From: Pseudomonas graminis
GTDB lineage: Bacteria; Pseudomonadota; Gammaproteobacteria; Pseudomonadales; Pseudomonadaceae
Reading direction: 5' to 3'
Assembly (NCBI RefSeq): GCF_002093745.1
Contig: NZ_MTSB01000003.1
Coordinates: 62,001-126,000 of the forward strand
DNA length: 64,000 bases
The notes below the pieces were generated by a model. That model was not told the DNA's origin. It saw only the letters and a program-made list of their open reading frames with translations, and did not search any database. The stretch's first letter is position 1. Each line of letters begins with the position of its first letter. Made by a program: the position numbers and the translations under genes. Below, piece by piece: positions 27,905-64,000 of the stretch.

Positions 27905-29080
27905 TCAAGCCCTGCTTACAGCGCCGACTTTCCTGCCCGCCGAACACTTGCGCAATATCCCCACCAACAGCAGCGCTATCACCGAGAACCAGGTACTGAC
28001 CAGCAGAACCGGCTGCGCGTTTTCGCCTGCGATCCATTGCGACGCCAGCAAAGGGCCAAACGCGCAGCCCAGCAATTGCATGCCCGGGATAAGCCCGGCG
28101 ATCCTGCCCGAGGGATCAATTTGCAGTGCAATGCGCACCTGAAAAGGCGTCAGCATCAGGTAGACCAGCGCAAAGAAGCTGCACAGCCCAAGGAATACCG
28201 TTATGCCCTGATCAGCCGCCACGTACATGCCCAGTGCAATACTGGCCAGCAGCAGCGCGGCCACCGCCAGCATCGAATAGTCGGGCACCCTGCGCACCAG
28301 CAAGATCCCCAGGCATCCGCCCACGACCTGCATGAACAGCATGGCCGATACCAGCAACTGCGCCGCTTGGGAAGTGAGGCCGGCGTGGGTACCCAAGGGT
28401 TCCAGATAGGCCCACAGCGCGCCGATGGCCGAGAGTTGCAGGAATACCAGAATCAGCAGCCCTGCGTGCTTGAAGTTCCATCTGAAACCGGATACGTCGG
28501 GCTGCTTGTCAGGTTGGCACGCCAGTCGTATGGGCAACCAGGCGACGCACACCACCGAAACGGCCGTCAGCACGCCCAGAAACACAAAACCGGCATAGAC
28601 GCTCTGGCCAGGCAATATCCAGAAAGCAAGTACCGCCGCTATCAGTGCCTGCGCCAGTGTCTGGACCACCATGAACACGCCTGCCACCCGGTCCGGAGCC
28701 GGCCCTTGTACGATCAGGCTGACGGCCCCCCATAACAGCAACCCTTCGGCCAGCCCTGCCACCGCACGTGCGGCGGTCAACGGACCATCGCCGGTGACAT
28801 TGGCGGTCACCAGGTCCATTCCGGCAGCGAAAAAAAGGGCGATGACCGTGAGCAGGCGCAGGTTCAGCCTTGACCGCAGCAAGTCGCCCAGCACCACGCC
28901 CAGCCCCAGCGCGACGATTTCCCCCATGGCGACCAGCCCGACGCCCTCCAGTGACACGTGGTTCTGCGCGAGCAACTCACCCAGCAATAGCGGTTGCAGC
29001 CCCACCATCAGCACAGCGACTGAGCCCAGAGCCAACGCGGCACTCAGTTGCCTGCGCGTTACAGCGGACGACGTTTGCAT
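27905..29080 (-). CDS. MFS transporter of the sugar-kinase/aldolase operon
   Basis: 391-residue major facilitator with about twelve hydrophobic segments and an arginine-containing loop (GDLLRSRLNLRLLT) after the second or third helix. It is the last gene of a minus-strand operon of kinase, aldolases and aminotransferase, 21 bases after the degenerate aldolase gene. The start has GAGG about nine bases upstream. Most likely it imports the operon's substrate or exports a product or toxic intermediate. The family gives no substrate. Confidence 0.8.
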   Translation of the reverse strand: MQTSSAVTRRQLSAALALGSVAVLMVGLQPLLLGELLAQNHVSLEGVGLVAMGEIVALGLGVVLGDLLRSRLNLRLLTVIALFFAAGMDLVTANVTGDGPLTAARAVAGLAEGLLLWGAVSLIVQGPAPDRVAGVFMVVQTLAQALIAAVLAFWILPGQSVYAGFVFLGVLTAVSVVCVAWLPIRLACQPDKQPDVSGFRWNFKHAGLLILVFLQLSAIGALWAYLEPLGTHAGLTSQAAQLLVSAMLFMQVVGGCLGILLVRRVPDYSMLAVAALLLASIALGMYVAADQGITVFLGLCSFFALVYLMLTPFQVRIALQIDPSGRIAGLIPGMQLLGCAFGPLLASQWIAGENAQPVLLVSTWFSVIALLLVGILRKCSAGRKVGAVSRA

Positions 29081-29101
29081 GGCATGCGCCTCTTCGGAGT
29101 T

Positions 29102-29722
29102 TCAATAACCGCGGGTTTCCGGCGGAATCTTGCCATCGGCAAAATGCTGCGCCGCGCGCTTTTCGTCTTTCATCAGCCTTCCGTTGGCCACCAGCACCAC
29201 CCACCAAGGCAGAAGCGTGAGCTGCGTGCCGCACGCTTTGGCCAGGGTGAAGGCCTTGGCGCACTTTTCAAACAGTTCGGCATTGAGTGCCATACGAGCG
29301 CCCGTGGTACCCATGACCACCGGCGTGCCCCCGATCAACGCGCCGTTCCCGCCTCGCTTCAATGTGTTCGCCAAGGGTTGATCCTGTCGGGCAGGCTCGC
29401 CCATATGGCCGATGTGACGCGCTTGCTCATCAAATAGAATCGGCATGACACCGCCAAAATCCACCAGACTTTTTGCGAACGTCCCGCCGCCGATCAGAAT
29501 CGCGCCGACATCCGCCCGGGTTCGGTAAATAGCCGCGTGGGTATGGCTGGCGGGTACTGCGCAAGCGGACCAGTCGATGACCTGTGGCGCCAGGTCATCG
29601 AGTGTTCCCAGCCACATGCCCTGCTCGCCCGGCAACCGCAGGGACATGCTGCTGTGCGAATCCACCTGGCCCATCAGGCGCTCACGCAGGTCAAACCATT
29701 GCTGTCGAAGTGACTCTCGCAT
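29102..29722 (-). CDS. degenerate class II aldolase/adducin-family protein
   Basis: About 206 residues with the class II aldolase fold (SHTHAAIYRTRADVGAIL). Aligned by eye with the aldolase encoded two genes upstream, the zinc ligands are replaced: the catalytic Glu becomes Ala58, the HxH pair becomes Ile77 and Gly79, and the last His becomes Asn126. Zinc-dependent aldol cleavage is therefore unlikely; a binding, isomerase-like or partner role is possible. The start at 29722 has GAGGTGAG upstream and follows the aminotransferase gene by ten bases. The gene is intact, so this looks like repurposing and not decay. Confidence 0.75.
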   Translation of the reverse strand: MRESLRQQWFDLRERLMGQVDSHSSMSLRLPGEQGMWLGTLDDLAPQVIDWSACAVPASHTHAAIYRTRADVGAILIGGGTFAKSLVDFGGVMPILFDEQARHIGHMGEPARQDQPLANTLKRGGNGALIGGTPVVMGTTGARMALNAELFEKCAKAFTLAKACGTQLTLLPWWVVLVANGRLMKDEKRAAQHFADGKIPPETRGY

Positions 29723-29732
29723 GATGCTCACC

Positions 29733-31214
29733 TCACACCAGCTGAAAGACAGTGTCGAAACGCTCGAGCGCGTCATCAATGACGTCGTCGGTGTCCGCCA
29801 GGCTGGTGTATATACGGCTGCCCGCCAGGGTGATCAGGCCATGCGCGGTGTAAGCGGCCCCCATCTCCTCCATCATGTGCTTGCGGGTCTTGGCCTCGTT
29901 ACGCGCCTTTAACAACTTGAGCGGGTTGCTGGTGTCGAGCAGCAGCACACCGGATGTCTGCAAATGCACGATGGAGCCCATGTTGTATGCCACGTAGGGC
30001 AAACCGCGCCGCTGGATGATCTCTTCGAGCCCGGCCCGCATACGGTCGCCTGCCCGTCCCGCCAGTGCCGGCGCATCAAGACGGCGCGCCTCGAGCAAGG
30101 CGTAGTAACCCGCCACACAGGACAGCGGGTTGGCCGACAGCGTCCCGCCGACGAACGCCCGTCGGGACGATGTGCCAATACCACCCGCCAGCAGTTGCAT
30201 CACGTCACGGCGCCCGCCAATGGCACCGGCCATCGGGTATCCGCCGGTCAGGCATTTACCCAGTACGGTGATGTCCGGCAAGACATTGAAATACGCCTGG
30301 GCGCCGCCCAGACCGGCCCTAAACCCGGTGACCACTTCATCGAAAATCAGCAGCGTGTCGAACTCGTTGCACAGCGCACGCAATTGACGGTTGAAGTCAG
30401 CATGCACCGGTCGTGTCCCGCTTTCCGGTCCAAAGGGTTCGACCATCACCGCGGCAGTGCCACCCCGCAGCCGATTGATTTGCAGCCTGCGGCGCAAGGC
30501 GTCCAGGTTGTTGGGCGGACTTTCCTGAGTGTTTGCCGTGGCGCCTCGCGGAATACCCACAGCCTCCATCCGCCCCGTACCCGGCAGGCGCATGCCGTAA
30601 ACCAGTTGGTCGCTCCAGCCGTGATAGGCCCCGCCGATCTTGATCACCCACTTTTTGCGGGTATACGCCCGCGCCAGGCGCACAGCCGCCATCACGGCCT
30701 CGGTGCCCGAACCCAGCAAGCGGACCATGTCGACGCCCGGCATCATCTCGCAGACCAGTTCGGCCAGCTTGACCTCGTATTCGTGCAGCAGACCGGTGAC
30801 CGGACCGCACTCGTCCAGTATCCGGTTGACCTGCTCGCGAATGGCCGGATGATTCGAACCTAGCAAGGTCGGGCCGCCCGCCTGTAGAAAGTCGGTGTAA
30901 CGATTGCCATCGATGTCCGTCAGGTGCGCACCTTTGGCCTGAGAGAAGGCCAGCGGAAACGGATAGTTGAAGGCCAGGTTGTGCTGCACGCCTCCCGGTA
31001 TGACTTTTTTTGCGGCCTCGGACAGGCGCTTTGAGCCTTGGCAACGTTCATCGAAATAACCCATGACCTTATTCATCGCGTCCCGCTTGATCGGGCGAAT
31101 GGGCTGCTTCACCAGCGCATCGAAACGACGATAGAGCGAATCGACATCAGGCCATTGCGATACCGCTGAAGCCGGGGCCTTGGGAATGCTGGCAGGATCA
31201 AGAGGTTTGTTCAT
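29733..31214 (-). CDS. class III PLP-dependent aminotransferase (GSA-aminotransferase-like)
   Basis: 493-residue PLP enzyme resembling glutamate-1-semialdehyde aminomutase and omega-transaminases. Landmarks are VIPGGVQHNL near the N-terminus, LLGSGTEAVMAAVRLARA, GGAYHGWSD, LLIFDEVVTGFRAGLGG (PLP-ring Asp) and LGKCLTGGYPMAGAIGG with K320 as PLP lysine. It has about 40-60 more N-terminal residues than typical GSA aminomutase. It is not likely to be hemL, because it sits in a catabolic operon with a sugar kinase and aldolases. The start overlaps the aldolase stop (ATGA). It may transaminate an aldehyde or keto product of the pathway or act as an amino-sugar or phospho-lyase enzyme. Confidence 0.82.
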   Translation of the reverse strand: MNKPLDPASIPKAPASAVSQWPDVDSLYRRFDALVKQPIRPIKRDAMNKVMGYFDERCQGSKRLSEAAKKVIPGGVQHNLAFNYPFPLAFSQAKGAHLTDIDGNRYTDFLQAGGPTLLGSNHPAIREQVNRILDECGPVTGLLHEYEVKLAELVCEMMPGVDMVRLLGSGTEAVMAAVRLARAYTRKKWVIKIGGAYHGWSDQLVYGMRLPGTGRMEAVGIPRGATANTQESPPNNLDALRRRLQINRLRGGTAAVMVEPFGPESGTRPVHADFNRQLRALCNEFDTLLIFDEVVTGFRAGLGGAQAYFNVLPDITVLGKCLTGGYPMAGAIGGRRDVMQLLAGGIGTSSRRAFVGGTLSANPLSCVAGYYALLEARRLDAPALAGRAGDRMRAGLEEIIQRRGLPYVAYNMGSIVHLQTSGVLLLDTSNPLKLLKARNEAKTRKHMMEEMGAAYTAHGLITLAGSRIYTSLADTDDVIDDALERFDTVFQLV

Positions 31215-31888
31215 GATTGAGTCTCTGAGAAAGTCTGAGGGCTGATGGCATGCGCACTGGCCAGGGCGCTGACCAGACGGGCGATGGCGGCACGTGACTC
31301 GGGCTCTCCCCCGGCATTGACCTTGATCCGGTTGAGCAGATGGTCACGGCAAAATGTTTCCAGGTCTTCCAGACGTGCCAGGGTGGTTTCGATGTCCGGG
31401 CCGCAGCACAGCACGCCGTGATTGCGCATCAGATAAGCGTTGTGGTCAGCGCGGACCGCCTTGCTCAGTTTGCCGGCCAGCCAGCTGGAGCCGGACGGTG
31501 CATAACCGACCAGCGGAATGCGTTTTCCCAGCGACTTCCACAGCTGCGGGTATGGCACGTCCAGCGCTTCGCCAAACAGTGTGCAGGCGCTGCCCAGTGG
31601 TTGATGGGTATGGATGCTGCAATTGACATCCGGTCGGCTGCGCAGGACTTTCGCGTGTAACGAGCTTTCCACCGAGGGTGAACGCTCTCCCGACAACTGT
31701 TTCAGGTCCTTGAGCCGCAGCACACAGACGTCCTCCGGTCGCATGCTGAAATAGTCCGTGGCCGACGGCGTGACAGCGATGTGCAGCGCATCTACACGCA
31801 ACGCGAGGTTGCCGCCGGTTGCGGCGAAGAAGCCGCGGCGAGACAGATGCCGCGACAGTGCGACGATCTGCTGTTGAACAGAACTCAT
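31211..31888 (-). CDS. class II aldolase (fuculose-1-phosphate aldolase family)
   Basis: 225-residue class II aldolase with the zinc site complete: E74, H93, H95 (SIHTHQP) and H157 (RNHGVLCCG). Family members cleave or epimerise phosphorylated sugars such as L-fuculose-1-phosphate, L-rhamnulose-1-phosphate or L-ribulose-5-phosphate. It directly follows an FGGY kinase with a four-base overlap, so it probably acts on that kinase's phosphorylated product. Exact substrate is unknown. Confidence 0.85.
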   Translation of the reverse strand: MSSVQQQIVALSRHLSRRGFFAATGGNLALRVDALHIAVTPSATDYFSMRPEDVCVLRLKDLKQLSGERSPSVESSLHAKVLRSRPDVNCSIHTHQPLGSACTLFGEALDVPYPQLWKSLGKRIPLVGYAPSGSSWLAGKLSKAVRADHNAYLMRNHGVLCCGPDIETTLARLEDLETFCRDHLLNRIKVNAGGEPESRAAIARLVSALASAHAISPQTFSETQS

Positions 31889-33513
31889 AATGCCGTCTCC
31901 TGCGATGGGTTCAGCCTGCGATAGAGCGGTGCCAGGCGCTTGCGCACTTCTTTGAACGTGGCGAAGCGGTCGTCATACAGGCTGCGGGTTGACGTGGAAG
32001 GCTCGTAAAGCCGATGGGGTCGTTGCAGCGAGGGCAAATCGTGGAACTGGAGTTTTTCCAGCGCCACGGCAGCGATGAAAGCGGCTCCGCGGGCATTGGT
32101 CTGGATGGGGTTGTGCGGCTGCTGGATCACTCGCCCGCAGACATCGGCCATGATCTGGCACCACACGTCCGATTGCGCGCCGCCGCCGGTGGCCACGATG
32201 ACGCCCCCGGGCTGGCCGATGAACCGCGAGAACGGCTCCAGCATCCAGCGCGTGTTGTGTGCCACGCCCTCCATGAAGGCACGGATGATGTCTTCCCTGG
32301 AATGTTCGAGCTTCAGGTTGAACAACCCGGCACGCAGACTCGGGTCGCCGGTGGGCGAACGTTCGCCGCACAGCCAGGGCGTGTAGATCAGCCCTCGCGA
32401 GCCGGGCGGCACCCGGGCTGCGATCCGGTCAAGAAGCGCATACACATCCGGCTGTTGCTCGTCGCTCAGCAGCTCATCCGGGTGATAAAGCACCTTGTCC
32501 CGCAAAAACGACAGGTTGGCCCCCGCCGCAGACTGCATGGCCATCGCCAGGTAGCGCCCTCTGACCGCGCTGGGAACCGCCGCGATGTGATGACGGACGC
32601 TGGATTTCTTGAACGGCACATGCGCACCGACCCATGACGAAGTGCCCAGATAAAGGTGCGGCGCAAAGTCACTCACGGTGGCGCCTACCGCCACGGCCGA
32701 GGTGTCCACGGCCCCGGCCACCACTGGCGTCGAGCGTGGCAGCCCCAGTGCATCGGCCAGTTCGGGCTGCAACGTGCCGATAATGTCTGTAGACCACACC
32801 AGTTCCGGCAATTTGCCGGCGTCGATGCCAAGCGCCTTGATCAGCCCTGTGTCGTAACGAATGCGATGAGGGTCGCGGTTATCGGTGATCCAGGCGGTCA
32901 GCATCGAGTCGCTGGTGGCGCAATAACGACCCGACAACCGCAGGTTCATGTAATCGAGCACATTGAGGAACTTGTAGGTCTTTTCATACCTGGCAGGGTC
33001 ATGATCAAGGATGTAGGCCATGTGCCCGGCCGAATCCATGCCGGACAGTGACGCCACCCCGCCCGTCAGGCGCAACGAGCGCCAGAGTTTCAGCGGGCCG
33101 TAGCCACCCAGATTGCACCAGCCACCGCCCATGCGTTGCTTGATGGAGTCGGCGCCGCGCTTGTCCAGCCATAACAAGGCACGGCCAAGCGCAGCGCCAT
33201 TGCGGTCGACACACACCGTGCCTTCGCTTTGGGTGGAACAACACACGGCCACTACCTGGCGACGCCTGAGCGAATCGGCCCCCAGCAACTCGCTGGCACC
33301 GCGCAAAAAAGCATTCCACCAGTCTTCCGGGTCCTGTTCGGCACTCAAACCGCTGACGTGAAGCGGTACGCCGTGGAACGCCCAGGCCCGGATGTCGCCT
33401 TCCATGGAAACCAGTGCGCACTTGCAGCCGGACGTTCCCAGGTCGATGGCCAGGACGAGTTGCTCCAGGCCGGTGGCCGCCTCAGGCGTCCGGGAAATGA
33501 AAAGCGATGTCAT
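31885..33513 (-). CDS. FGGY-family carbohydrate kinase (xylulokinase-like)
   Basis: 542-residue sugar kinase. The N-terminal domain opens with LAIDLGTSGCKCALV (phosphate-1 motif at about 24-30) and the C-terminal domain has GGGAQSDVWCQIMADV and RGAAFIAAVA in the ATP site. It phosphorylates a ketose or polyol in the cytoplasm; sequence resembles xylulokinases, but this group covers many substrates. It starts ten bases after the porin gene and is coupled to the aldolase gene downstream, pointing to a kinase-aldolase catabolic sequence. Confidence 0.85.
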   Translation of the reverse strand: MTSLFISRTPEAATGLEQLVLAIDLGTSGCKCALVSMEGDIRAWAFHGVPLHVSGLSAEQDPEDWWNAFLRGASELLGADSLRRRQVVAVCCSTQSEGTVCVDRNGAALGRALLWLDKRGADSIKQRMGGGWCNLGGYGPLKLWRSLRLTGGVASLSGMDSAGHMAYILDHDPARYEKTYKFLNVLDYMNLRLSGRYCATSDSMLTAWITDNRDPHRIRYDTGLIKALGIDAGKLPELVWSTDIIGTLQPELADALGLPRSTPVVAGAVDTSAVAVGATVSDFAPHLYLGTSSWVGAHVPFKKSSVRHHIAAVPSAVRGRYLAMAMQSAAGANLSFLRDKVLYHPDELLSDEQQPDVYALLDRIAARVPPGSRGLIYTPWLCGERSPTGDPSLRAGLFNLKLEHSREDIIRAFMEGVAHNTRWMLEPFSRFIGQPGGVIVATGGGAQSDVWCQIMADVCGRVIQQPHNPIQTNARGAAFIAAVALEKLQFHDLPSLQRPHRLYEPSTSTRSLYDDRFATFKEVRKRLAPLYRRLNPSQETAL

Positions 33514-33523
33514 AAAGGTCTAC

Positions 33524-34405
33524 TCAGAATGTGCGGGAAATCGACGCCACCCAGCGACTGCCGTCCGTGGTACGCACATGCCCGTCGTCCTCGGCCATAT
33601 ACAGCTCGCGCGCCCTGGTTTTGGTGGTCACCCAGTCGAGTCCCCAATCGAAACCCCACCAGTGATGAACCAGCCCCACGCCGTAATCAGCAAAGTCGGC
33701 CTCCGAGAAGTTCTCGATCTGCTGATAACCGGCATGCACTTTCAGGTTGGTATTGATGCCCAGCGCGTACTTGTAGTCCAGGTCATACAGCATGCTGCCC
33801 CGTGAGTTGTGATCGCCCCTGGCGTAGCAGTCCAGGCCTTTGGTCGGGTCTTCACGGAACTGCAATTGCGCGCCGCAAACACCGCCGCTGTTGGCACCTC
33901 GATAGTTTTTCGAGAGCACCCGTGCGACTCGCCCTTCGAGCGCGCCATAGCCGATTTCAAGCACTGCAAACTGGCTGTTGTAATGGGTCGAGTGTTCTTC
34001 GCCAGGCGTGAAGGTCTCGAAATCGAATCGATTGGGCGCCTTGAATTGAGCCCCTGGAAACATCTCGGCGGCGAGGCCCACGCCATAGTGCCAGGCATCC
34101 GGATCGCCGAAGCGGTAGCCACCGGCGAACAGAACTCCGGCTCCATCGCCGTCGAGAAACTGCTTCTTGCTGACCGTGGTAAATTCGGCGAGCGCCACAA
34201 GGCCCGATTCATGAGCGACCTGAAGGGTCACTTTGGCGCCCGGCTTATTCAACGAATCGGAGATGCCCCGGGTGCGAATATCCGAACTGACCTTGGCGGT
34301 GACGTCCACCGCGTAACTCGACATTTCATCGGCCAGCGCCAAGGTCGGACAGGCCGCCGAGCACAGTGCTACCGCCATTGCATAACGGGTTGTATGAGTG
34401 CGCAT
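33524..34405 (-). CDS. TorF-type putative porin
   Basis: About 293-residue outer-membrane beta-barrel. A signal peptide ends at LALA before residue 26. The start of the mature protein has the TorF/Gcw_chp hallmark (VSSDIRTRGISDSLNKPG), alternating amphipathic strands follow, and the chain ends in Phe (WVASISRTF). Such proteins are presumed channels. The start at 34405 has GGGAGAG upstream. It lies between the DUF2147 gene and the sugar kinase gene with tight spacing, so it probably admits the operon's substrate through the outer membrane. Confidence 0.78.
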   Translation of the reverse strand: MRTHTTRYAMAVALCSAACPTLALADEMSSYAVDVTAKVSSDIRTRGISDSLNKPGAKVTLQVAHESGLVALAEFTTVSKKQFLDGDGAGVLFAGGYRFGDPDAWHYGVGLAAEMFPGAQFKAPNRFDFETFTPGEEHSTHYNSQFAVLEIGYGALEGRVARVLSKNYRGANSGGVCGAQLQFREDPTKGLDCYARGDHNSRGSMLYDLDYKYALGINTNLKVHAGYQQIENFSEADFADYGVGLVHHWWGFDWGLDWVTTKTRARELYMAEDDGHVRTTDGSRWVASISRTF

Positions 34406-34433
34406 GATTCTCTCCCACGCTAAAGGACCGGAC

Positions 34434-34859
34434 TTACAATGTGCAAACCGGGGCAGGAGGCAGTGTGTCGATACGTTCGAATTGCTCTGTCTTGCCGAGG
34501 ACCTCGGTGCCGACAAAAGCCCTTACATTGAGGCGACCGTCCTTGACCCGGACAGCGCCCTTGTATTTTTTATGGTCACGGGGGTCATACACCCAGCCGT
34601 CGCGCCAGGCATCCTGGTCATAACGGGTCAGTTGCAGGATTTGTACGCCGCAATCGCTGGACGTCGACGCGGTATCCTTGACCCAGACAACCTGTCCGCA
34701 GAGAGCACCTGCCGTATCCTTGCAATCGTCCAGCCTGACCACGGCGTCCTTTTCCGCTGTCAGCCAAAGTCCCTTGGCCTCCAGCGGACCTGTCGCCGCA
34801 TGAATGCCAGTGGAGCACATCAGAACCGAGGAAAAGAAAAGCCATTGCTGTACGTTCAT
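34434..34859 (-). CDS. DUF2147-family exported protein
   Basis: 141 residues with an N-terminal signal peptide ending near IHA-A (residue 21-22). The DUF2147 pattern follows: GLWLTAEKDAVVRLDDC, CGQVVWVKD, GWVYDPRDHKKYKGAVRV and LNVRAFVG. These are small secreted or periplasmic beta-rich proteins of unknown function, often found beside porins or transporters. AAGGTG precedes the start. It is the first gene of the minus-strand operon, directly downstream of the tandem operators shared with the TetR gene. Confidence 0.8.
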   Translation of the reverse strand: MNVQQWLFFSSVLMCSTGIHAATGPLEAKGLWLTAEKDAVVRLDDCKDTAGALCGQVVWVKDTASTSSDCGVQILQLTRYDQDAWRDGWVYDPRDHKKYKGAVRVKDGRLNVRAFVGTEVLGKTEQFERIDTLPPAPVCTL

Positions 34860-34915
34860 AGCGGCACCTTTTTATTTTTTTTAACAGACCGTCACAATAG
34901 CGACGCCTCAGTTAT

Positions 34916-34948
34916 GATAGTCATCGCTACACGATAGTTATAGCTATC
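34916..34948. promoter_or_regulatory. tandem inverted-repeat operators, probable TetR sites
   Basis: Between the DUF2147 gene and the divergent TetR gene lie two related sites. Copy 2 is the perfect inverted repeat GATAG-ttatag-CTATC (34933-34948). Copy 1 is GATAG-tcatcg-CTAc (34916-34930), with the same spacing and starting 17 bases earlier. Placement in a 156-base divergent promoter region suggests that the TetR protein represses its own gene and the operon. Confidence 0.6.
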
Positions 34949-35015
34949 ATTTTAGGGCGCAGCAACTGTTTTTTTCATTGCGACACAGGCTCCCCATCCT
35001 TTTTGACAGGTACTT

Positions 35016-35690
35016 ATGGCCAGGCTGAAAACCGACACAGATCCTGCGCAGGTCGCGGGAAAAACGGCAGAGCGAAAAAAGATCCCCGCGCAGCAACGGG
35101 CGACTGAAACCTACGAGCGGATTCTGGTGGCCACGGCCCAGACCCTGTGCGACGTCGGCGTGGAGCGCTTGTCGACCAATCTGGTCTGCGAGCGCGCCGG
35201 TCTGACTCCGCCTGCGCTGTATCGCTATTTCCCCAACAAATACGCGCTGTTGACGGTTCTTGGTGAACGTCTGCTGGAGAAGCAGAACGAGCGGATCGAT
35301 CACTGGATCACGCCTGAACTCTTGACTGGCACGCCGCAAGCCCTTGAGCAGGCGCTTGCCGAGCTGATTCTGGACACTTATCGGGTGACGGACGCCACGC
35401 TGGGCGGCATGTGGACCCTCAAGGCATTGAGGGCGGTTCCGGCACTTGAACACGTGCGGCTCGACTCGCACCGTCGGGTTTCCACCGCTCAGGCTGCAAT
35501 CCTGGCCGGCGTTTTCCCGGACGCGGACCCTGAACGTATTGCGATGGCTGCTCGAGTGGCGGTAGAAATGATTCACGCCACCATCGAGTTGCTGTTCGAT
35601 GAACCGCTGAACCCAGGGCACGTTTGCGCAATGGTGGCGGCGATGATCGTCAGTCACCTGGATCGTTTGGGTCCCGAAACAGGCAACTGA
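35016..35690 (+). CDS. TetR-family transcriptional regulator
   Basis: 224-residue regulator with an N-terminal TetR DNA-binding domain preceded by a basic tail of about 35 residues. The helix-turn-helix region is RLSTNLVCERAGLTPPALYRYFPNKYAL. The C-terminal ligand domain is not diagnostic. It is divergent from the porin-kinase-aldolase operon and 49 bases upstream of an aldehyde dehydrogenase gene on the same strand. It is inferred to control both through the inverted repeats at 34916-34948, with a pathway metabolite as inducer. Confidence 0.88.
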   Translation: MARLKTDTDPAQVAGKTAERKKIPAQQRATETYERILVATAQTLCDVGVERLSTNLVCERAGLTPPALYRYFPNKYALLTVLGERLLEKQNERIDHWITPELLTGTPQALEQALAELILDTYRVTDATLGGMWTLKALRAVPALEHVRLDSHRRVSTAQAAILAGVFPDADPERIAMAARVAVEMIHATIELLFDEPLNPGHVCAMVAAMIVSHLDRLGPETGN

Positions 35691-35739
35691 ACTGAACACG
35701 CCTCCAGTTATTACAATAAACAGCACCAGGAGCACCGGC

Positions 35740-37176
35740 ATGAACCAGCCTGCACAGATCCCCCCTACCACACCGTATTCTGTTGCGGCGCTTGCCGAAC
35801 TGCTGGAGGCGCAGCAGGCTGCGAATCGCGCTCAGGGAGCGCCTTCCTACGCGCAACGAATGGCAGACCTGGAAGCCGTTTCCCGGCTGGTCAGGGACAA
35901 TCAGGACCGGTTGCTCGAAGCGGTCAGCGCAGATTTCGGCAACCGCTCTTTTGCCGAAACCAGACTCGGCGAGCTGATGCCTGTCATCAACGGCATCAAG
36001 CATATTCGCGCGCACCTCAAAGCCTGGATGCGCCCGGCCCGGCGCAAAGTGGGGATTATCTTCCGGCCGGCCTCTGCCAACGTCATTTATCAGCCTCTGG
36101 GCGTGGTGGGCATTCTTGCGCCCTGGAACTACCCACTGACCCTCACCCTGATCCCGTTGATCGAAGCGCTGGCTGCCGGCAATCGCGTGATGATCAAACC
36201 GTCAGAGCTGACCCCGAGAACCTCTGAACTGCTCAGGCAATTGCTGAGCGAAACGTTTCCCGCCGATCAGGTTGCCGTGGTCACCGGCGATGCCATGCTG
36301 GCCAGCCAGTTCAGTGAGCTGCCGTTCGACCATCTGCTGTTCACCGGATCGACCCGCATCGGGCGGCAGGTCATGGCGGCGGCGGCGCACAACCTGACGC
36401 CCGTGACCCTGGAGCTGGGCGGCAAATCGCCGGTCGTGATCTGCGCCGACTTTTCGATCAGAAAGGCCGCCCGCATGATCGCGATCGGTAAATTGTTCAA
36501 TGCCGGTCAGACCTGCGTAGCACCCGATTACGTTCTGGTTCCACGCGACCTGGCAGATAGCTTCGCCAGCGAATGGCTGGCGGCGGCCAAAAAGCTTTAC
36601 CCCACCCTTGAAAGCAACCCGGACTACACCTCGATCATCTCGCCTCGGCATTACGAGCGATTGCTGGGCATGGCCAGTCAAGCCGTTGCTGCAGGCGCTA
36701 AAGCCTGGCAACACGATGCGCCCGCCGCGGCCGACGAACGCAAGATCCCGCCTACGGCGTTCACCCACGTGCCATTGAACTCAGACCTGATGCAGGAAGA
36801 GATCTTTGGTCCGCTGCTGCCAGTTCTTGTCTACGACACGCTGGATGAGGCGATTGCCTTTATCAACGCCCGGCCCTCGCCCTTGGCCCTTTATTGCTTT
36901 TCCAGTGATCAGGCATTCGTGGATAAGGTGCTGAACCGCACCCGCTCTGGCGGTGTGACCCTCAACGGCACCATGCTGCACGCCACGCAGGATGACCTGC
37001 CGTTCGGCGGTGTCGGAGAAAGTGGCACCGGGGCCTATCACGGCTATGAAGGCTTTGTCCGCCTGTCGCATGCGCGTGGTGTTCTCAAGTTGAGCCGCTT
37101 CAACCTGTCGGACAAGGTCTCTGCGCCTTATGGACGCCTGACGCGCCTGGTCACCCGGTTCATGCTCGGCAAATAG
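35740..37176 (+). CDS. aldehyde dehydrogenase (coniferyl-aldehyde dehydrogenase-like)
   Basis: 478-residue NAD(P)-dependent aldehyde dehydrogenase. Catalytic residues are E225 (LELGGKSPV) and C259 (NAGQTCVAP), with the cofactor-loop motif FTGSTRIGRQ. The overall sequence, lacking the N-terminal arm of classical ALDHs, resembles the coniferyl-aldehyde/fatty-aldehyde subgroup. AGGAG lies about eight bases upstream. Placed after the TetR gene, it may oxidise an aldehyde released by the aldolase or made by the aminotransferase of the divergent operon; an unrelated aldehyde-detoxifying role is the alternative. Confidence 0.88.
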   Translation: MNQPAQIPPTTPYSVAALAELLEAQQAANRAQGAPSYAQRMADLEAVSRLVRDNQDRLLEAVSADFGNRSFAETRLGELMPVINGIKHIRAHLKAWMRPARRKVGIIFRPASANVIYQPLGVVGILAPWNYPLTLTLIPLIEALAAGNRVMIKPSELTPRTSELLRQLLSETFPADQVAVVTGDAMLASQFSELPFDHLLFTGSTRIGRQVMAAAAHNLTPVTLELGGKSPVVICADFSIRKAARMIAIGKLFNAGQTCVAPDYVLVPRDLADSFASEWLAAAKKLYPTLESNPDYTSIISPRHYERLLGMASQAVAAGAKAWQHDAPAAADERKIPPTAFTHVPLNSDLMQEEIFGPLLPVLVYDTLDEAIAFINARPSPLALYCFSSDQAFVDKVLNRTRSGGVTLNGTMLHATQDDLPFGGVGESGTGAYHGYEGFVRLSHARGVLKLSRFNLSDKVSAPYGRLTRLVTRFMLGK

Positions 37177-37522: not shown

Positions 37523-38191
37523 ATGCCTCATACCCTACTCCCGCAGATTGGCAGGGCCATCGCCAGCATCGGCAATGGTAATTTCTCCAGCATGTTCCAC
37601 AAACTGATCGACACCCAGCTTGCGGTCGATGCCACGCACCTTTCATCACTTCCGCAGCCCTGGCAGGCCCCGGCAGATTCGGCACCTACGGTCTTCAACG
37701 AGACGGTGACGTCGTCGCGGGGCACGTTACTGCTCAACGACTCTATTCATCTGTATCCCGATCAGGCTTCGGAGAGCTTCAGTTGCAAGATTTCGGTGTT
37801 TCGCGCGCTTCCGGCGCATGCGTTTTCCGACAGAGAACGCCGCCAGCTGGACGACATATCACCGCTTCTGTTCTCGATACTCGAACGGCATGTGAATGCC
37901 TTGCAACTGGCGATGCCCAGCCTCGAATACGGCAAGACAGAGAGTTTCGAAGAGCGTTTCCACGAACGCCTGCGCGAGACAGGCCTGACACTGTCCGAGC
38001 GTGAAACGCAGGTCTGCCTCGGCCTGCTGGCCGGTCACACCGCACTCGAACAGGCCGAACGCCTGACGCTCAAGGTCAATACGGTCGGCAGCTACCAACG
38101 CCGTGCCGCCATCAAACTGGGTATCAGCGGTCGGCACTCTCTGATGCGCTGGATGTACGCATCGTCCGAAAGCAACTGCCCGGCCTACTGA
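37523..38191 (+). CDS. LuxR-type transcriptional regulator flanking the syringafactin genes
   Basis: 222-residue regulator with a C-terminal LuxR/FixJ helix-turn-helix (about 155-213; LTLSERETQVCLGLLAGHT, then LKVNTVGSYQRRAAIKLGISG). The N-terminal half does not show the conserved residues of an acyl-homoserine-lactone domain, so it is an orphan LuxR of the kind that flanks lipopeptide synthetase clusters in Pseudomonas. It is convergent with syfB and sits at the 3' end of the synthetase operon. Whether it is the syringafactin activator SyfR or a second regulator cannot be decided, because the region upstream of syfA is outside the window. Confidence 0.82.
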   Translation: MPHTLLPQIGRAIASIGNGNFSSMFHKLIDTQLAVDATHLSSLPQPWQAPADSAPTVFNETVTSSRGTLLLNDSIHLYPDQASESFSCKISVFRALPAHAFSDRERRQLDDISPLLFSILERHVNALQLAMPSLEYGKTESFEERFHERLRETGLTLSERETQVCLGLLAGHTALEQAERLTLKVNTVGSYQRRAAIKLGISGRHSLMRWMYASSESNCPAY

Positions 38192-38228
38192 GCCGCCTCT
38201 ACTCATCAGAACCCGGTATAGCCCGACA

Positions 38229-38272
38229 GTACCGTGGTACGGCGTGCAGGCCCGATGCCGGACCGCACGCCG
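38229..38272. terminator. hairpins between the convergent luxR and syfB genes
   Basis: The 97-base convergent spacer holds an 8-bp perfect stem CGGCGTGC/GCACGCCG (38240-38272, 17-base loop) preceded by GTACC/GGTAC (38229-38240). No T tract follows on either strand, but the position between two converging genes suggests a bidirectional transcription barrier. Confidence 0.45.
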
Positions 38273-38288
38273 ATCACGCCCTACCGGA

Positions 38289-64000
<25,712 letters not shown>

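Follow-up and report, generated by a model that had tools for sequence, protein, structure and literature searches.

The stretch of DNA analysed here (the window) comprises 64,000 nucleotides of the Pseudomonas graminis contig NZ_MTSB01000003.1, and at positions 27905-37176 it carries an island of nine genes whose substrate class, judged by gene families and gene neighbourhoods, is very probably that of the sphingoid bases. The island itself is probably an operon for the detoxification and catabolism of such bases, most likely of 4-hydroxylated ones such as phytosphingosine (2-amino-1,3,4-trihydroxyalkane). Its layout is the one given by an earlier first-pass annotation: seven close-packed minus-strand genes form an operon-like block with ATGA overlaps or short gaps, divergent from a tetR-aldh pair, and all nine frames are intact. 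The core of the block consists of an FGGY kinase (KIN, 31885-33513), a class II aldolase whose metal ligands and catalytic Glu are intact (ALD, 31211-31888), a class III, HemL-like aminotransferase (AT3, 29733-31214) and a protein of class II aldolase fold that lacks the metal site (DA, 29102 to about 29722), all on the minus strand. KIN and ALD overlap by 4 bp, as do ALD and AT3, while the remaining gaps on this strand are about 10-30 bp. The plus-strand pair consists of a TetR-family regulator and putative repressor of the operon (35016-35690; Pfam PF00440) and an aldehyde dehydrogenase (ALDH, 35740-37176; PF00171).

The proposed pathway follows from what these families do. FGGY kinases act on a CH2OH group adjoining a carbonyl or hydroxyl, and class II aldolases of the ALD type split ketose-1-phosphates bearing hydroxyls at C3 and C4. 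In a sphingoid base C2 carries an amine, so that an aminotransferase is needed to obtain the ketone, after which the C3-C4 bond could be cut in 4-hydroxy bases only. Among sphingoid bases, we infer, the 2-amino-1,3,4-triol alone provides KIN, AT3 and an aldolase of the dihydroxyacetone phosphate (DHAP) type with a reaction each. The base, free or released by other organisms, would enter through the porin and the MFS transporter of the island and relieve TetR at a tandem motif at 34917-34948. KIN would then phosphorylate the C1 hydroxyl to give phytosphingosine-1-phosphate, and AT3 would transaminate the C2 amine to a 2-ketone, an analogue of a ketose-1-phosphate that bears a long alkyl chain. 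ALD, paired with the metal-less DA as a heteromer, would make the retro-aldol cut at C3-C4 to yield DHAP and pentadecanal, which ALDH would oxidise to a C15 acid for beta-oxidation. We regard this exact mechanism as reasonably likely. At 25-50 uM, phytosphingosine is described as killing P. syringae pv. tomato; at 100 uM it halts growth of this bacterium whereas its 1-phosphate does not (PMC8776846). Because the 1-phosphate leaves growth intact, a pathway that begins with phosphorylation would explain detoxification.

One link to sphingolipids lies in the regulatory region. Between the DUF2147 gene and tetR lie two palindromic ATAGTNATNNCTA boxes, 17 bp apart (34917-34948, no strand), and this arrangement is conserved from Pseudomonas to Comamonadaceae. 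The box pattern has three matches in the window, at two places, where 0.05 would be expected. A single box is unspecific in the genome of the window (17 matches with up to 2 mismatches, as opposed to 8 for a reversed control), and only the tandem pattern is specific: with up to 2 mismatches it is found in 39 of 56 genomes with the cassette, and the reversed control gives no match. Each of the 30 tandem sites retrieved as loci has a cassette-type gene no more than 1.5 kb away, in L234 a short-chain dehydrogenase (SDR) gene alone. The tandem motif is presumably the operator bound by the TetR of the cassette. In Albitalea terrae (G456) there are exactly two tandem motifs, one at the cassette and the other about 75-105 bp ahead of the point at which a neutral ceramidase (E 1.5e-133 to 2zws) probably starts. 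The gene after this ceramidase (L241:4949-9033 for the pair) encodes a GH5 protein that is closest to endoglycoceramidases (E 3e-20) and has a ricin-type lectin domain. Endoglycoceramidase and ceramidase together free sphingoid bases from complex sphingolipids. Since the second motif precedes enzymes that free sphingoid bases, the regulator of the cassette most likely controls sphingolipid breakdown. With up to 1 mismatch, the tandem pattern occurs in G456 alone among 399 genomes sampled from its order, the presence of the cassette in the other 398 not having been checked.

Ceramidase is also found near the cassette in Pseudomonas. The ceramidase family PF04734 is present in 4 of 248 Pseudomonas genomes, with three copies of full length and a weak, split match in G123; the ceramidase frame of L185 has 667 residues. 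In two of these genomes (G013 and G118) the ceramidase lies about 8 kb from DA, directly after a TetR-DUF1302-DUF1329 set and divergent from KIN-ALD-AT3-DA, and the chance of both ceramidases falling so close to DA (10 kb either side) is about 2e-5 for the pair. Co-occurrence of ceramidase and DA gives p 0.02 in Fisher's test, or 0.01 for the full-length copies, with the 249- and 248-genome Pseudomonas samples treated as one set. A general linkage to ceramidase outside Pseudomonas was considered and rejected: the family is present in 3 of 49 genomes, in none within the fetched cassette locus, and one of the three copies lies behind a cassette motif. The third full-length Pseudomonas copy is in G054, which has no DA match; there the ceramidase stands beside sphBCD-like genes, an AraC gene, DUF1302 and DUF1329 (L191:1793-11913), which suggests that the two DUF families serve sphingolipid use at that locus.

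In Myxococcota, the neighbour of the kinase is itself a sphingolipid enzyme. DA matches were found in 11 of 188 Myxococcota genomes at E<=0.001, three of them strong (E<1e-80; G249, G423 and G433), and in all three strong cases a sphingosine-1-phosphate (S1P) lyase adjoins KIN, in G433 split in two where a contig ends. In L111, a Myxococcales locus, the lyase gene is the next one after KIN (phmmer E 2.6e-205 to 3mad); L110 ends inside KIN, and L096 is too short to show such a neighbour. Since S1P lyase works on sphingoid-base 1-phosphates, its position next to KIN gives the best hint that the base itself is what KIN phosphorylates. In the window, no S1P lyase (Pyridoxal_deC) is present among the ten proteins scanned with Pfam; the rest of the genome was not searched for it.

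A fourth association concerns genes that resemble the sphBCD operon of P. aeruginosa. This operon is described as sphingosine-responsive, with sphB encoding a cytochrome c, sphC an oxidoreductase and sphD an aldolase-like protein dependent on pyridoxal phosphate (PLP); sphB and sphC are important for growth with sphingosine, while sphD is dispensable (PMC3900636, PMC11893366). An SphC-like flavin oxidase of the ALO (D-arabinono-lactone oxidase) family is found in the fetched flank of 11 of 80 cassette loci, with a PLP gene of the Ala-racemase fold next to it in 10 of the 11 and a small cytochrome c gene preceding it in 5; L070 has another subtype of both. The make-up of these neighbours, oxidase, PLP protein and cytochrome c, matches the description of P. 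aeruginosa sphBCD. After the cassette of three Pseudomonas genomes (G013, G028 and G194) come an AraC/Arabinose_bd gene and then sphDCB-like genes, with the oxidase within 4 kb of DA. When the L047 oxidase was used as a query, 43 of 149 Pseudomonas genomes were matched at E<=1e-10, 33 of them over nearly the full length at 43-49% identity. Among 12 further oxidase regions, 8 have an AraC gene with 31-37% identity to that of G013, and L165 has one with 74%; a Phenol_MetA_deg channel is confirmed by Pfam in L154, and open reading frames (ORFs) with a similar start are seen in five more oxidase regions. SphA is described as a member of this channel family (PMC4493636). This arrangement resembles the published sphR-sphA-sphBCD neighbourhood.

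An alternative possibility is that the substrate is some other amphipathic amino-polyol or alkyl-glycerol lipid, such as an ether lipid or a hopanoid side chain, to which sphingoid bases are merely related. The P. aeruginosa operon PA3024-PA3027, which is of related design, has been proposed to act on glycerolipids (PMC8151288). A variant of the ALD-DA set would also agree with such a substrate: in L105 and L109, an APH-type kinase and a GlpD-like flavoprotein replace KIN and AT3. This pair would likewise phosphorylate and then make a C2 ketone ahead of ALD and DA, which also speaks for the order of steps proposed for phytosphingosine, and the variant may be a sister pathway that handles a non-amino alkyl polyol. 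The associations with ceramidase, endoglycoceramidase and S1P lyase nevertheless indicate sphingolipids, and we consider another lipid class very improbable as the substrate of the island.

The genes at the core belong together well beyond this island. DA is present in 16 of 249 Pseudomonas genomes, that of the window included, and in 14 of the 15 Pseudomonas relatives the order KIN-ALD-AT3-DA is collinear, with L024 having ALD-DA only. Searching the genome collection with an alignment of DA gave 107 relatives, and in the best 80 of these 107, on which the locus counts are based, all four proteins were recovered as single frames in 73 loci, collinear across distantly related bacteria. Loci L017-L023 and L032-L042 share some genomes (e.g., L017 and L032 are the same), and the two counts are not independent. 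The remaining 7 loci are two contig edges (L047 and L096), a Xanthomonas locus (L088) in which the KIN and AT3 frames are split and ALD was found by tblastn, the Myxococcota loci L110 and L111, which have no AT3, and the variant loci L105 and L109. KIN-ALD-AT3-DA is an old, collinear cassette, far from a chance association, and the first-pass annotation, which would have been contradicted had the set fallen apart in other genomes, holds in this respect. Accessory genes are less constant: relatives found at E<=1e-6 anywhere in the locus number 69 of the 80 loci for TetR, 66 for MFS, 56 for DUF2147, 54 for the porin, 44 for ALDH and 27 for SDR, the last two figures taking in distant family members.

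The proteins can be placed in families, while their scores stay below the curated equivalog cut-offs. KIN has both FGGY domains (PF00370 and PF02782), and D24 and the catalytic Asp, D270, are kept in 88 of 88 sequences; these and the other residue counts for KIN, AT3 and ALD are taken over single-frame copies of near-normal length, some of which share genomes. Against curated equivalogs, KIN scores 231.5 bits for XylB (cut-off 380.25), 70 for FucK (470.9) and 120.4 for ribulokinase (428). ALD (PF00596, 139 bits) has ribulose- and fuculose-phosphate aldolases as its nearest models, below cut-offs of 264 for fuculose-phosphate aldolase and 300 for ribulose-1-phosphate aldolase. AT3 belongs to the class III PLP aminotransferases (PF00202), with the PLP-binding Lys320 present in 86 of 86 sequences; its best scores are to HemL-type models and structures, and it reaches 281.2 of the 527.3 bits required for the HemL equivalog, glutamate-1-semialdehyde aminomutase. 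The best NCBIfam model for ALDH is MdlD, at 329.9 bits (cut-off 550), and the catalytic Cys is present in 25 of 25 aligned sequences.

These scores bear on the idea, put forward in the first-pass annotation, that the island takes up and cleaves a sugar or polyol. The order of kinase and aldolase as successive steps in one catabolic-looking operon is borne out, and KIN is indeed closest to xylulokinase and ALD to the ribulose- and fuculose-phosphate aldolases, as would be expected if the island encoded a pathway of the fuculose, xylulose, ribulose or erythrulose type for a ketose or polyol, with the aminotransferase as an accessory. Every score, however, is far under the curated equivalog cut-off, no sugar transporter or glycosidase is seen among the annotated recurrent neighbour clusters (some clusters being unannotated), and SMP-30/gluconolactonase accounts for 2 of 88 neighbour proteins among the 25 of 194 Pfam families listed. 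The telling neighbours are instead ceramidase, endoglycoceramidase, S1P lyase and SphBCD-like genes. A sugar or polyol pathway is therefore improbable and was set aside as the leading idea, and the sugar substrate of the first-pass annotation gives way to a sphingoid base. Its remark that the aminotransferase and the catalytically altered aldolase fit no known sugar pathway stands, and since a sphingoid base is an amphipathic amino-polyol, such a substrate explains the aminotransferase and the aldehyde dehydrogenase too. Likewise, no described pathway with this gene set was found in the open-access literature, as judged by titles and the start of abstracts of the papers listed, with subscription journals and preprints not covered. 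The same Pfam sweep, of 88 of 132 dereplicated long neighbour ORFs, gave no further sphingolipid family among the families listed.

The cassette pairs an intact with an altered aldolase. All 92 of the 92 aligned ALD sequences share E74, H93, H95 and H157, so that the three His metal ligands and the catalytic Glu are present throughout. DA itself has no Pfam match at E<=0.001, and its relatives reach Aldolase_II only below the cut-off of that family. Comparison of the DA and ALD profiles with hhalign nevertheless gives a probability of 86 (E 5e-6), and the AlphaFold2 model of DA (predicted local distance difference test 78, predicted template-modelling score 0.80) finds its PDB matches in the class II aldolase superfamily. 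The target-normalised template-modelling score to the L-fuculose-1-phosphate aldolases 1fua, 4c24 and 7x78 is about 0.7, and the best E-values go to other members of the superfamily, pyruvic oxime dioxygenase and TqaM. At the positions given by the hhalign alignment, both histidines of the HxH metal motif are missing in 93 of 93 DA sequences. The third His is missing in 90 and present in 3, and the catalytic Glu is replaced in 75 and kept in 18, with Ala in the window. DA is thus a class II aldolase by fold only, lacking the metal ligands and, for the most part, the catalytic Glu of the class. In Thalassolituus sp. UBA1087, ALD and DA form a single frame of 446 residues (L105:9353-10690), a fusion which argues that the two proteins form one complex, and we propose that DA is the non-catalytic partner of ALD in a heteromer. 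As for the start of DA in the window, about 29722 is preferred over 29779, where the ORF begins, because distant relatives start near ORF residue 20.

Even with sphingoid bases as substrates, the chemistry could differ from that proposed. KIN could form the 1-phosphate, AT3 could act as a phospho-lyase or deaminase and ALD/DA, in the manner of MtnB or AraD, as a dehydratase or epimerase; alternatively, the SDR could first form a 3-keto base. No 4-hydroxyl would then be required. Such a scheme shares the sphingolipid context with the DHAP-forming route, the class II aldolase relatives of ALD include epimerases as well as the MtnB dehydratase (84 bits), ALD has Val and Ala without exception at V73 and A43, and Myxococcota carry KIN, ALD, DA and S1P lyase without AT3. 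On the other side, ALD has lost neither a metal ligand nor the catalytic Glu, AT3 is closest by score to HemL-type proteins, and the GlpD-like replacement in L105 and L109 fits a C2 ketone. We consider a different chemistry unlikely, though the most serious of the alternatives, and prefer transamination followed by aldol cleavage.

Several observations weigh against the proposed route and its sphingolipid setting. In place of the invariant V73 and A43 of ALD, FucA has Ser72 and Gly44 near the phosphate site, and if phosphate binding is kept in ALD it must therefore differ. No AT3 orthologue was found in the three Myxococcota genomes searched (best 36-37%), which means that ALD and DA must there use another substrate or another enzyme. 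Three loci have ALD-DA without KIN and AT3, and one of them, L024, lacks the APH/DAO pair as well. The SDR and the DUF2147 protein are given no step in the pathway. The tandem motif is absent, at up to 2 mismatches, from 17 of the 56 cassette genomes, all four Xanthomonas included, and in Albitalea a divergent ORF begins 157 bp away on the other side of the ceramidase motif. PF04734 was not found in 46 of the 49 cassette-locus genomes searched, and the 3 hits all lie outside the fetched cassette loci. The naming of the SphBCD-like neighbours is based on families and gene order, and a twin-arginine-like motif is seen in just 5 of the 11 SphC-like oxidases (a Pfam TAT signal in L047 and L059). 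No such oxidase is seen in the partly short flanks of 69 of the 80 loci; 11 of the 16 DA-positive Pseudomonas genomes, that of the window included, have none, and of the 5 that do, 2 carry it far from DA. The genome of the window has no ceramidase PF04734, nor a match to SphC at E<=1e-30 or 1e-10. The operon of the window is thus not SphBCD, and with neither ceramidase nor SphC the bacterium would depend on free bases.

Compared with known systems, the cassette shares its substrate class, by context, with sphR-sphA-sphBCD of P. aeruginosa, and genes of that make-up occupy the same locus as the cassette in several relatives. The enzymes are different: SphB and SphC are described as periplasmic (PMC3900636, PMC11893366), whereas the cassette combines a kinase with an aminotransferase and a class II aldolase pair. 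For P. aeruginosa, the product of sphingosine metabolism is given as unknown (PMC11893366). With the eukaryotic-type S1P lyase route, the proposed pathway has in common that both begin with phosphorylation at C1, and KIN adjoins the lyase in the three Myxococcota genomes. S1P lyase cuts C2-C3 to give phosphoethanolamine and an aldehyde, whereas the cassette is proposed to cut C3-C4 by means of an aminotransferase and an aldolase pair. Eukaryotic sphingosine kinases also have a different fold from the FGGY fold of KIN. Bacterial pathways of the FucK-FucA or XylB type have the same succession of FGGY kinase and class II aldolase, from which the cassette departs by its scores below every equivalog cut-off, the extra aminotransferase, the metal-less aldolase paralogue and the lipid context. 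Finally, the PA3027-PA3024 operon of the P. aeruginosa GliR regulon also has an FGGY kinase, along with a GlpD homologue, an oxidoreductase and an AraC regulator, and is thought to function in lipid metabolism; as described, it has no class II aldolase pair or aminotransferase, and its substrate is unproven (PMC8151288).

The balance of this evidence tilts toward a third, previously undescribed route for sphingoid bases beside S1P lyase and SphBCD, in which an FGGY long-chain-base kinase, a 2-aminotransferase and a heteromeric aldolase would convert phytosphingosine to DHAP and a C15 aldehyde. Such a route would let plant-associated Pseudomonas, Xanthomonas, Acidovorax relatives, Paraburkholderia and Dyella disarm the chief antimicrobial long-chain base of plants and fungi and feed on it. 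Phytosphingosine is described as the major long-chain base of plants (PMC8776846). If the route is real, plant-associated bacteria possess a means to neutralise and use this compound, the FGGY family gains a lipid kinase, the metal-less aldolase paralogue is given a role, and a direct source of odd-chain C15 acids is predicted.

A biosynthetic role was also considered, in which the cassette would produce a keto or amino lipid or else supply an adjoining lipopeptide with a building block, given the non-ribosomal peptide synthetase (NRPS) at 38289-56066. In the P. syringae group the cassette does have LuxR and NRPS genes as neighbours, but outside the loci of that group (L032-L035) the fetched flanks hold no match to that NRPS or LuxR, and the porin and the co-regulated hydrolases fit catabolism. 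Lipopeptide biosynthesis was dropped for the first of these reasons, and a biosynthetic cassette of any kind appears most improbable.

The remaining genes of the island lie on the minus strand. A DUF2147 protein is encoded at 34434-34859 (PF09917), and a TorF-family outer-membrane porin (Gcw_chp) at 33524 to about 34405, above the cut-offs of both PF09694 and TIGR02001. The listed porin ORF, 330 residues long from a TTG start, is over-long; by eye, an ATG and a signal-peptide-like stretch are seen at residue 38. The MFS transporter (MFS_1) lies at 27905-29080, at the other end of the block. In loci L020-L023 of the P. fluorescens group the MFS frame continues into an SDR (655-658 residues; L020:7204-9177), an unusual fusion of transporter and enzyme in which both domains are detected by Pfam in L020 and L023.

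A genome labelled as the same species, G020, has no DA, no match to the LuxR and no close copy of the neighbouring cytochrome b561 gene (best 34%), and thus offers no empty site for comparison. Either the variable stretch extends beyond the island or the species label is loose. Beside the island, the window holds at 37523-56066 a LuxR gene and an NRPS frame of 5,925 residues with two thioesterase-like stretches at its end, recognised by eye, and matches to the LuxR and to the NRPS end adjoin the cassette in the P. syringae-group loci L032-L034.

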